36,383 bases of DNA from Bacteroidaceae bacterium. GTDB taxonomy: Bacteria > Bacteroidota > Bacteroidia > Bacteroidales > Bacteroidaceae. The stretch is from contig JAFQVS010000097.1 in the NCBI GenBank assembly GCA_017407905.1, positions 1-36,383 of the forward strand, written 5' to 3'. The position numbers and the translations under genes are program-made. Positions 25,925 through 31,850 of the stretch are shown one piece after another (within the stretch, counting starts at the first letter, position 1; each line of letters opens with the position of its first letter). The notes under the pieces were generated by a model. That model was not told where the DNA came from. It ran no database searches and worked only from the letters and a program-made list of their open reading frames with translations.

Positions 25925-26184
25925 TAGAATTTCCTATATTCTGCCACATATCTATAATAGCTATTAGAGTTGGATTGAAACAAGGCTACTTCAGCCATTA
26001 TATATTCTTCAGGCTTATTATAGATAGTATCTTTCCAACTCTTAATATCATTGTTGCCACGTCTTTGGATAATATATTTGTGAATTATCCAGTCGGGGTC
26101 TTTATCTTCGGAGCAACTAAACATACTGCAAGATGCAAGCAATATTGTTGCATATAGTAAAAGGCGCTTTTTCATATTATCCAT
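25924..26184 (-). CDS. Small phage-borne lipoprotein, copy 1
   Basis: An 86-residue protein with a basic start, hydrophobic stretch and lipobox MFSC (Cys about residue 24). Its mature part is paralogous to copy 2 (DPDWIIHKYI, DTIYNKPEEYIMAEVALF, YRKF). The ATG at 26184 overlaps the stop of the repressor gene, and an ATG at 26175 immediately after that stop is an equal candidate. The repressor and the two lipoproteins form one overlapping unit. The paralogues differ mainly in the middle loop, which points to duplication followed by divergence. Function is unknown. Confidence 0.8.
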   Translation of the reverse strand: MDNMKKRLLLYATILLASCSMFSCSEDKDPDWIIHKYIIQRRGNNDIKSWKDTIYNKPEEYIMAEVALFQSNSNSYYRYVAEYRKF

Positions 26185-26548
26185 TTTTTTTTACCGTTAG
26201 TTCGGTTTTCAATTTTCGATTTTCTTCTTCGAGCAACTGAATAGTTTTGTTCTTCTCGTTGATAGTTTCCTGCAAGGTTGTTATTGTATCTATTAGTCGT
26301 TCCATTCTGAGTGAGTTTGCATCGGATATGGAGTTGCCAGATTTTATCATATCGCCATTACCTCTAAGTAGCCATTCAGCAGACACATCTTCCCGGAAAG
26401 ATAAAATAGAAATGATTGTTGATAGACTTAATTCACGTTTACCGTTGAGTTGATTAGTAAACGTATTATCCTTAATTCCGCATTGAATGCAAAATGCCCT
26501 ATTGCTTATTCCTAAATAAGAAATAAGTTCTTTAATTCTCTCAATCAT
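26177..26548 (-). CDS. Phage repressor-like HTH protein with coiled coil
   Basis: A 123-residue protein. An N-terminal XRE-type helix-turn-helix (about 5-60: LGISNRAFCIQCGIKDNTFTNQLNGK) is followed by a short segment, SAEWLLRGNGDM, often found in Bacteroidales phage repressors. A C-terminal coiled coil (about 80-118, LIDTITTLQETINEKN onward) probably drives dimerisation. ATG at 26548 is preferred over TTG at 26560. It is divergent from the early genes, with repeated dyad operators between. There is no S24 peptidase domain, so induction would not occur by RecA-stimulated self-cleavage. A separate antirepressor may be used. Confidence 0.85.
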   Translation of the reverse strand: MIERIKELISYLGISNRAFCIQCGIKDNTFTNQLNGKRELSLSTIISILSFREDVSAEWLLRGNGDMIKSGNSISDANSLRMERLIDTITTLQETINEKNKTIQLLEEENRKLKTELTVKKNG

Positions 26549-26580
26549 ACCTTTAATCAATTGTTTTCAAATGTTAAAAT

Positions 26581-27019: not shown

Positions 27020-27253
27020 ATGGAAGGAAAACAACCAAAAGAAGTCGATCTGGAGAACATCACCTTTGAGGATTTAAAAGAAGAGTACAAGATACAACAA
27101 GTTCAATATAAGGCTTTGCAGACTGCATATGAATCAAACAAACAGAGTTTAGAATTTTGGATGGGACAAGATAGTCGCAATAACGCTCGTATAGCCGAAC
27201 TGCGCGGTACCCTTCGCTCTGTTATCAAACTCGCAGAAAGCGAGTTGAAATAA
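27020..27253 (+). CDS. Small coiled-coil early protein, unknown
   Basis: A 77-residue protein starting MEGKQPKEVDLENITFEDLK, with a long predicted helix (EEYKIQQVQYKALQTAYESNKQ) and a basic C-terminal helix. The start at 27020 is preferred because the upstream in-frame extension overlaps the preceding gene. Family and function are unknown. Its last codons form a hairpin (27228-27246). Confidence 0.7.
   Translation: MEGKQPKEVDLENITFEDLKEEYKIQQVQYKALQTAYESNKQSLEFWMGQDSRNNARIAELRGTLRSVIKLAESELK
27228..27246 (+). other. Hairpin at the end of the 77-aa gene
   Basis: AACTCGC and GCGAGTT form seven perfect pairs around AGAAA. No T run follows, so it is not a typical terminator. It may be a processing or attenuation element ahead of the structured region. 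Confidence 0.4.
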
Positions 27254-27262
27254 CCTCTCACT

Positions 27263-27276
27263 GAAAGTCAAACCAA
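27263..27276 (+). repeat. Leader repeat AAAGTCAAACCAA, copy 1
   Basis: Three copies of (A)AAAGTCAAACCAA occur in the phage region, at 27263-27276, 28513-28526 and 30163-30176. Copies 2 and 3 begin 28 and 27 bases before an ATG. Copy 1 precedes the structured intergenic region and a possible GTG-started short frame 29 bases downstream. Confidence 0.65.
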
Positions 27277-27291
27277 ACCACCAGCCTCATC

Positions 27292-27393
27292 GTGCATTGG
27301 GTTGCAGTTGAGGCACAATTAAACAGAGAAGAGTTCTTTGACGTATTGTACCAATTGATATTGATAGGCGTAATGGAAAGTGTATTGCAATAA
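27292..27393 (+). CDS. Possible 33-aa phage peptide (GTG start)
   Basis: A short frame starts GTG and reads (M)HWVAVEAQLNREEFFDVLYQ, ending in an aliphatic helix LILIGVMESVLQ. Composition is protein-like. A leader repeat lies 29 bases upstream, the same spacing as ahead of two other genes. No family or strong ribosome binding site supports it. Confidence 0.3.
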   Translation: MHWVAVEAQLNREEFFDVLYQLILIGVMESVLQ

Positions 27394-27417
27394 GCACTCT
27401 GTGCCGCGCATACATTC

Positions 27418-27683
27418 AGGCCATAGCCTAACGGCAGCTTGGAATGCCGGAGCAGTCCCCTACATTAAGCAATGAAAGCGACGGGACAATAAGAGTAGCG
27501 TCTTTAGTTTCCCCCTTAAAGCGAATAAGGGAAAGATATTCGCAGAGTAGTTAATTTTTAATAGCTCGTTCCGCTTTTCGAAATCTGGTAATTTCTACAA
27601 AAGGCCTTCGCATTGCCCATCATTGTAGAACGAGCAACAATATACCTCGCAGATGAAAGCGCGAGGATAGCCCTTGATGCTAT
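27418..27683 (+). ncRNA. Candidate structured noncoding RNA (consecutive hairpins)
   Basis: No gene fits in 27394-27787, but seven hairpins follow one another. They are AGGC/GCCT (27418-27429), CGGCA/TGCCG (27432-27449) and GTCCC/GGGAC (27455-27487). Next is a two-part stem TCTTT/AAAGA plus CCCTTA/TAAGGG (27498-27543). A three-way junction is closed by GCTCGTTC/GAACGAGC (27564-27571 with 27628-27635) with inner arms GAAAT/ATTTC and TACAA/TTGTA. The last two are CCTCGC/GCGAGG (27645-27666) and ATAGC/GCTAT (27667-27683). The word ATGAAAGCG occurs in two loops (from 27472 and 27653). Strand is assumed from the early transcript. No known RNA family is recognised, and the rest of the gap to 27787 holds only weak GCGC pairing. 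Confidence 0.55.
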
Positions 27684-27787
27684 TGTGATTTGCTAAAATT
27701 TGTAACCTGTAATAACCACATAAATAATCCCAAGCATCGTAAGCGCAACCACCGGAACGCGCAAGGGCACGACTTTAATTATAAGAA

Positions 27788-28033
27788 ATGAGAAAGAACA
27801 TTTTTGTAAACATTTGGGGCGCACAGATGCCCGCAACCCTAACCACGTGGGAAGAGATTAAGAAACTCGGCTTTAAGAAAAGCGACCGTTCATTTGGCAC
27901 CCTCAATGATGGGCGACAGGCTTTATTCTTCAACGGTGGCAAGATGTTTCCGAGAGCAGACGGAACATTGCCAAATGGCGGTGCAGATAAATGGTTTGTA
28001 ACAACCGAGACATTAGAAGAAATTGATGATTAA
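27788..28033 (+). CDS. Small phage protein, unknown
   Basis: An 81-residue protein beginning MRKNIFVNIWGAQMPATL, with WEEIKKLGFKKSDRSFGTLNDGRQALFFNGGKMFPRADGT in the middle. It ends acidic. It follows the structured region and precedes two overlapping small genes on the same strand. No family is recognised. A frame of this length with sensible codon use supports it being real. Confidence 0.7.
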   Translation: MRKNIFVNIWGAQMPATLTTWEEIKKLGFKKSDRSFGTLNDGRQALFFNGGKMFPRADGTLPNGGADKWFVTTETLEEIDD

Positions 28034-30941: not shown

Positions 30942-31850
30942 ATGATAGAATTAGTAAAATCCCCGGTAGTGTTCATAGAGGACACTCACACCTATCTATA
31001 TGGTGATAAGATATTGATGGGTATAACAGGAATGATAAGCCGACAGTTATTCCCCGATAAATACACGAATATTCCTGAGTTTGTATTGAAACGAGCTGCC
31101 GAACGTGGTAGCCTCGTTCATTCACAATGTCAGTTTGCCGACGTTACAGGCTTTGAGCCTGAAAGCATTGAGGCAAAGAACTATATTGACTTACGCACTA
31201 ATGCCGGTTATTATCCTGTGGCAAACGAATACACAGTTTCAGACCTTGAGTATTTCGCCTCCAACATTGATTGTGTTTGGGGTAAAGAGGGAGTTGATAA
31301 CAGCGTTGCAATAGTCGATATTAAGACAACAAGCAAACTCGATGAAGAGTATCTCAGTTGGCAATTGAGCATATATGCAGACCTGTTCGAGCGACAAAAT
31401 CCCCACATTAAAGTTACCGACTTGTTCGGAGCGTGGTTGCGTGGTGATATAGGGAAATTAGTCCCTGTCAAGCGAAAAACGCCTGCAGAAGTTGCTCGCT
31501 TGCTTGAGTGTGAAATTGCCGGTAAAAAGTACAACGATGGAACAGAACTTGTTTCGCAAAAATCAATGATTGTTGCTCAAAGGGTTGTTGATATGATTAT
31601 CGAGTCAAAAGAATTGGCGGCCTATTACAAGGAGCAAGAGAAAACAATGACAACCACATTGCATAAGGCAATGACTGAACACGGGGTTAAGTCGTGGGAT
31701 ACGGAATTGATGAAAGCGACAATAGTTCCGGCATCGACTTCTACAACCTTTGATACAACAAGATTTAAGGCTGACCACCCAGAACTATATAAACAATATT
31801 TGAAAGAGACAGAGAAAGGCGAAAGCCTGAGAATAACCATCAGAAAATAG
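30942..31850 (+). CDS. PD-(D/E)XK nuclease, putative recombination exonuclease
   Basis: A 302-residue protein. Motifs in order are GSLVH (His60), DLEYFASNIDCVW (Asp110), AIVDIKTT (Asp126, Lys128) and LSWQLSIYADLF (Gln141 and Tyr145). This is the RecB/Cas4/YqaJ-like arrangement of phage exonucleases. It probably resects DNA ends for the adjoining annealing protein. ATG at 30942 lies nine bases after the preceding stop. The upstream extension overlaps the preceding gene and is unlikely. Confidence 0.82.
   Translation: MIELVKSPVVFIEDTHTYLYGDKILMGITGMISRQLFPDKYTNIPEFVLKRAAERGSLVHSQCQFADVTGFEPESIEAKNYIDLRTNAGYYPVANEYTVSDLEYFASNIDCVWGKEGVDNSVAIVDIKTTSKLDEEYLSWQLSIYADLFERQNPHIKVTDLFGAWLRGDIGKLVPVKRKTPAEVARLLECEIAGKKYNDGTELVSQKSMIVAQRVVDMIIESKELAAYYKEQEKTMTTTLHKAMTEHGVKSWDTELMKATIVPASTSTTFDTTRFKADHPELYKQYLKETEKGESLRITIRK

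Follow-up and report, generated by a model that had tools for sequence, protein, structure and literature searches.

A gap without genes in the early region of a prophage raises the question of what, if anything, it encodes. The gap lies in a contig (C67) of a Bacteroidaceae bacterium whose genome is a bin of 2.30 Mb in 102 contigs (84% complete), and the window analysed here is this whole contig of 36,383 nt. The left part of the window carries a TolC-like gene among others, named by reading of the open reading frames (ORFs). The early region begins at approximately 26.2 kb with a repressor-like HTH gene on the minus strand (26177-26560; HTH_19 at 21.4 bits, under the curated cut-off of 30.2), followed by plus-strand genes that encode Rad52-like, PD-(D/E)XK, SNF2-like and VRR-NUC proteins, among others. 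Homologues of the repressor-like gene occupy the same position in L182-L186, which are among the closest related early regions. Two small plus-strand ORFs flank the gap (27254-27787): one ends at 27253 and the next, of 81 amino acids (27788-28033), has no Pfam match and no relative in viral contigs or in any of the genus's 43 other genomes (1/44, its own). The initial annotation had described seven hairpins in series here, in a gene-free stretch, as a structured RNA of no known family. The stretch is indeed gene-free, as no ORF of at least 40 amino acids crosses 27418-27683 on either strand. The absence of a known family is also borne out: the window has no family match in Rfam 15, the lone hit at E ≤ 10 being a chance microRNA (E 7.8) outside the hairpins. 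ROOL and GOLLD, large phage RNAs, had been named for comparison together with nearby phage tRNAs. The window has no Rfam match to either RNA, and a search with ARAGORN found no tRNA or tmRNA in it.

The stems that had been listed are present in the gap. The 72-nt three-way junction closed by eight perfect pairs was found at 27564-27635, with the stem GCTCGTTC (27564-27571)/GAACGAGC (27628-27635), and a further stem of 8 bp is formed by TTCTACAA (27593-27600) and TTGTAGAA (27623-27630). The stems GCGAATA (27521-27527)/TATTCGC (27537-27543) and CCTCGC (27645-27650)/GCGAGG (27661-27666) and the shorter CGGCA/TGCCG, GTCCC/GGGAC and GAAAT/ATTTC are also there, and the repeated motif ATGAAAGCG was recovered at 27472 and 27653, with a third occurrence in the window at 31710. 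Complementarity beyond chance was confirmed only weakly. The gap holds nine perfect stems of at least 6 bp compared with a mean of 4.8 (s.d. 2.2) in shuffled sequence, an approximately twofold enrichment that 9 of 200 shuffles equal, and two of at least 8 bp compared with a mean of 0.35 (10 of 200 shuffles reach as many). Its three stems of at least 7 bp are equalled or exceeded in 10 of 50 windows of 394 nt from the phage half, which overlap each other and in some cases the gap. The folding energy of the whole gap, in contrast, is like that of shuffled sequence (z of -0.50 and -0.53 in two runs for the plus strand and -0.66 for the minus strand). The gap as one stable RNA unit was therefore rejected, and the seven hairpins stand as individual stems and not as a single RNA. 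Among eight regions folded on both strands the lowest values were obtained for 27560-27645 (z of -2.0 plus, -1.6 minus) and 27640-27700 (z of -2.3 plus, -2.6 minus). The gap (27418-27683) has three plus-strand copies of the hexamer AAAGCG, with which CGCTTT at 27572-27577, within the hairpin, could pair, perhaps by chance.

What the gap does contain is a relative of a host RNA, and this lies on the minus strand, whereas the initial annotation had read the plus strand. A blastn search with the gap against a sample of 150 genomes including its own gave matches in 22 of the 149 others. In 21 of these the match covers the same segment at 27600-27638, spanning 36-57 bases and starting at or next to 27602; in the 22nd it lies elsewhere, towards the right-hand end, where 35 bases (27739-27773) match at 91% (E of 5.2e-7). 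The near-identical stretch at 27601-27638 shares 37 of 38 bases with the host copies L072, L102 and L161, and gives an E of 2.1e-9 against copy L002. A covariance model of the host element (R1) matches the minus strand at 27517-27657 with 33.5 bits (E of 2.4e-6 for the window); the next-best match in the window has an E of 1.7. The three-way junction at 27564-27635 is the P2 hairpin of this element with a rearranged loop, as judged from the fold and from comparison, while no relatives were found for the other hairpins of the gap. The claim of a structured RNA is thus upheld for the junction and not for its neighbours.

The host element is a leader RNA, roughly 300-400 nt long, present in multiple copies in Bacteroidales and apparently uncatalogued; we regard it as a candidate new family. 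No Rfam 15 match was found for it in 20 loci at the gathering score or in five loci at E ≤ 1, and its core and upstream-loop sequence words are absent from the main texts of the literature searched. It may be among the 3161 candidate RNAs that are predicted in PMC8040213. Model R1 covers the 3' part of the leader and was built from an alignment (A1) of 71 of 117 non-redundant copies, two of the others (L035 and L046) being judged false and the remainder dropped for size. A further 36 of 166 core occurrences had been left out for lack of the outer-arm motif, the copy in the window among them, and at least four of these (L018, L097, L126 and L147) look like real copies. The leader copies share a stem P1 (GCGYGGG/CCCRCGC) followed by a U-run, and a stem P2 (GUUGCUCGUUC/GGGACGAGCAAC) with the invariant loop GGGC-AAUGCGAAG-GCC. 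Changes on both sides were observed in 13 of 23 pairs in A1, and 95.9% of cells are paired, whereas shuffles reach 92.3% and slid controls 42-54%. The G-U pairs fit one strand only, which is the minus strand in the window; they occur in 24, 25 and 27 sequences at columns 37-95, 38-94 and 44-87, respectively. The covariation for which a check had been proposed is therefore found in the host family, whereas the phage copy is known from one genome only.

The leader also appears to be folded by long-range contacts. In 100 of 113 copies AACTTCGCA lies in the upstream part. The segments X and Y next to it have their complements, X' and Y', next to the P2 loop of the same copy in 95/101 and 93/101 copies, with mean pairing scores of 20.4 and 18.5 compared with 10.6 and 9.9 for mismatched copies. 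The loop centre changes together with its partner: where the centre is GCGAGAG the partner is TCTCGCA (13/13 copies), and where it is GCGAAGG the partner is CTTCGCA in 132 of 163 copies, TCTCGCA in two and neither in 29. Taken together, the complementarity of the segments and the covariation of the centre show that the P2 loop and a loop further upstream pair with each other; the stem closing this upstream loop pairs weakly (15.3 compared with 13.6, s.d. 0.3). The 3' arm of P1 is complementary to a segment past the U-run, with a score of at least 16 in 85 of 118 copies compared with 31 expected from mismatched copies, and we therefore conclude that the P1 arm pairs with a downstream loop. The promoter motif TAnnTTTG is at no fixed distance just upstream of P1; candidates were seen by eye approximately 250 nt upstream.

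Within the host family, 82 of 121 genomes (the own genome included) match R1, with 1-17 copies each. None of 197 genomes from elsewhere in the phylum does so at an E of 1e-4; blastn detected three matching genomes from other families of the order. Outside the window, R1 finds two good copies in the own genome (E of 5.1e-14 and 5.5e-8), alongside seven weak matches. Three of the weak matches (L173, L174 and L175, on contigs C72, C26 and C73) precede an ATG and differ in their loop (GGTGTTTGGCGATACC or a similar sequence); they are perhaps a second leader subclass. The next ORF lies on the same strand in 117 of 126 located copies, a set in which the false L035, L038 and L046 remain, on the opposite strand in three, and is lacking in six; its ATG is at a median of 70 nt past the U-run (middle half 53-80 nt). 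This orientation and spacing suggest that the element is a cis-acting leader and not a randomly placed repeat. By crude tests, 19 of 115 downstream ORFs have a lipobox pattern and 49 more a hydrophobic N-terminus. In a set of 81 proteins (A2), drawn from 116 downstream ORF references, the commonest Pfam families are the leucine-rich repeats LRR_8 (six) and LRR_5 (five) and OMP_b-brl_2 (three), and the PADLOC models for BrxP, DndC and methyltransferases have one or two members each. The leader thus precedes secreted or surface proteins, methyltransferases and DndC/BrxP-like defence genes.

The phage copy retains the P2 hairpin of this leader. Its P2 stem (GTTGCTCGTTC/GGAACGAGC) and loop GGGCAATGCGAAGGCC, with the conserved loop sequence GGGCAAUGCGAAGGCC, are as in the host, whereas P1, the U-run, the CTTCGCA partner and an adjacent ORF are all missing. 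In place of the outer stem GCGYGGG/CCCRCGC there are several unpaired positions, in which GCGAG and CUCUGC are possibly a degenerate remnant of P1. Neither ACTTCGCAA nor AACTTCGCA, which would mark the upstream loop partner (CUUCGCA), occurs in the window on either strand, and no same-strand ORF lies shortly downstream. The loop has also been altered. Relative to L002, compared by eye and by its stems, the phage copy has a 21-nt insert on the minus strand (27582-27602): the extra bases follow GCC, and behind them the sequence resumes with TCGAAAAGCGG, which L002 and L005, copies from the same genus, also carry. The insert provides TTGTAG, which pairs with CTACAA (Y') across the conserved loop, and most of an AAAT/ATTT mini-hairpin. 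The phage loop is therefore closed on itself through CTACAA/TTGTAG, whereas the host loop is open for its long-range partner. On this comparison of sequences, the prophage gap very probably holds a captured, reversed fragment of the host leader RNA.

The site at which the fragment lies has a character of its own. A boxA-like site, GAGAAGAGTTCTTTGACGTATTGT, is located on the plus strand at 27326-27349, and L182-L186 have it conserved at the corresponding position. Just upstream is a hairpin GCCTCA/TGAGGC (27284-27314, plus strand), and a hairpin is seen by eye in the same position in related prophages. The name reflects our assumption of a correspondence with the antitermination site of rRNA operons. 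The phage sequence TTCTTTGACGTATTG resembles ATCTTTGACATATTG, which is found approximately 150 nt upstream of 23S rRNA in a relative (G190), but the phage site lies in an early operon and not an rRNA operon, and its antitermination role is putative. Two loci of G190 have the motif between 16S and 23S rRNA, one mismatch away from the form used in the search, and in a third locus it follows 16S rRNA and two tRNAs, the bases beyond being masked. An rRNA-linked motif was not found in the seven other genomes searched at one mismatch. Antitermination at rRNA boxA is treated in PMC10250234 and PMC4807359.

Related phages have RNA genes behind this site. Infernal detects a tRNA-like match 136-216 nt past it in L182, L183, L184 and L186, and in L305, L394 and L401 a tRNA-like gene lies 183 nt past it, two of these having inserts and one a two-base anticodon call. 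For the exact ATATTG form, a sense tRNA lies within 900 nt in 18 of 32 contexts compared with 22 of 87 random windows, and for the other forms in 10 of 62 compared with 12 of 177; this tally covers the viral-contig contexts among the matches listed. Of all 28 first tRNAs in these contexts, 16 start 26-37 nt past the first base of the motif. The window shares with these phage tRNA arrays a non-coding slot behind the same boxA-like motif, but has no tRNA and instead has the hairpin at approximately 235 nt past the motif. Some of the tRNA-like genes are unusual: those of L186 (3330-3487) and L184 (3215-3314) have inserts and are 158 and 100 nt long, the insert in L305 and L394 itself has a T-arm-like stretch, and that of L182 (3725-3794) has by eye a three-base anticodon loop. 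A common structured stretch, CAACGAYATAATGCTGTG...CGTTG, was seen by eye between the boxA-like site and the tRNA-like gene in L182, L183, L186, L305, L394 and L401; it shows apparent compensatory changes and is absent from the window.

The explanation that we consider best as a whole, with a probability of about 0.4, is that a boxA-opened non-coding slot carries the reversed leader fragment, which acts as an antisense RNA. The boxA-like site would allow polymerase to continue across the untranslated gap, just as the site seemingly does ahead of phage tRNA arrays, and the early plus-strand RNA would then display the exact complement of GGGCAAUGCGAAGGCC in a hairpin loop. This RNA would resemble the CUUCGCA strand and could take the place of the upstream partner of the host P2 loop, and could thereby disturb many leader RNAs at once. 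The predicted duplex of the plus-strand phage RNA with L002 has an energy of -91.5 kcal/mol, and the mean over 115 copies is -71.7 kcal/mol compared with -31.8 kcal/mol for shuffled sequence; strong duplexes with other copies are expected because homology alone gives them. For the two good copies of the own host, which carry GCGAGAG so that the complement is imperfect, the predicted values are -58.1 and -40.9 kcal/mol. An antisense or decoy function of the fragment is in itself doubtful, and the fullest version, in which the prophage captured, inverted and rebuilt the leader hairpin and its early transcript competes as antisense at the invariant loop of many leaders, is unlikely. If the antisense reading were true, the phage would control many host genes by way of an RNA element that they share.

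The strongest rival, a serious possibility at somewhat less than even odds, is that the fragment is an inert passenger: a piece of host leader taken up by recombination and now decaying, its hairpin persisting because the capture was recent. The loss of outer stem, U-run, upstream partner and downstream gene is as expected for such a piece, and so is its presence in one genome only. Neither the 82 loci collected around the closest early gene (neighbours of the Rad52-like gene; best E of 0.18) nor the 92 tested of 120 boxA loci contain the fragment, and no phage relative was found in a phage collection with the gap as the query. Phage relatives with the same fragment, which the comparison proposed in the initial annotation would need, were not encountered among the loci searched, and there is therefore no sign of selection on the fragment; the remaining hairpins of the gap, moreover, barely exceed chance. 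However, the insert leaves both flanks paired, with CTACAA/TTGTAG and the 8-bp GCTCGTTC/GAACGAGC both perfect, which random decay need not do, and the fragment sits where relatives have RNA genes. The function that we weakly favour remains an antisense action of an early phage RNA on the host leader loop, and we infer that this is about as likely as an inert fragment. Even an inert fragment would have led to a widespread Bacteroidales leader RNA with strong covariation and long-range loop-loop pairing, and the slot points to a boxA-like site that would open non-coding slots in these phages.

Less probable is a decoy in the sense orientation, in which a minus-strand RNA shows the leader loop and titrates a binder, either a protein or the upstream loop of the leader, or is a leftward antisense RNA; the OOP RNA of lambda is a leftward antisense RNA of this kind. 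The host RNA strand is the minus strand, and a promoter-like match on that strand (27719-27749), approximately 80 nt before the copy, suggests that it could be the one used. The predicted pairing of the phage minus-strand RNA with host upstream loops averages -31.0 kcal/mol compared with -22.6 kcal/mol for shuffled sequence (s.d. 4.3, n = 101). However, this pairing follows from the homology, the promoter-like match is weak (one mismatch per box, against a background of 13 such matches in 1.7 kb of both strands), the early genes are on the plus strand, and the only terminator candidate past the copy is GCGAATA/TATTCGC followed by just three T. A working cis leader for a leftward phage gene is very improbable, since the next credible minus-strand gene downstream, the repressor-like one, is approximately 1 kb away compared with the median of 70 nt in host copies, two early genes on the opposite strand intervene and half of the leader is absent.

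Among known RNAs, the FopS sRNA family of Bacteroides (PMC11697453) is multicopy with a U-rich terminator, and its sequence is reported to occur also in a Bacteroides phage. The host leader shares the multiple copies and the U-rich end, but the published description gives FopS a 5' single-stranded seed and a terminator, whereas the leader is pseudoknotted and precedes genes, and the two are set apart on these descriptions. In viral contigs the exact core of the leader occurs in 21 stretches, of which only L043 and L050 were judged to hold the element. Both are IMG/VR contigs with full leader copies in a virus or host flank, and the ORF behind the leader in L043 resembles a PAPS-reductase/DndC-type gene. 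The 121-nt host element also has matches in two 'Bacteriophage sp.' records without annotation, both from human faeces (MT839469.1 and MT836080.1; H21 and H22).
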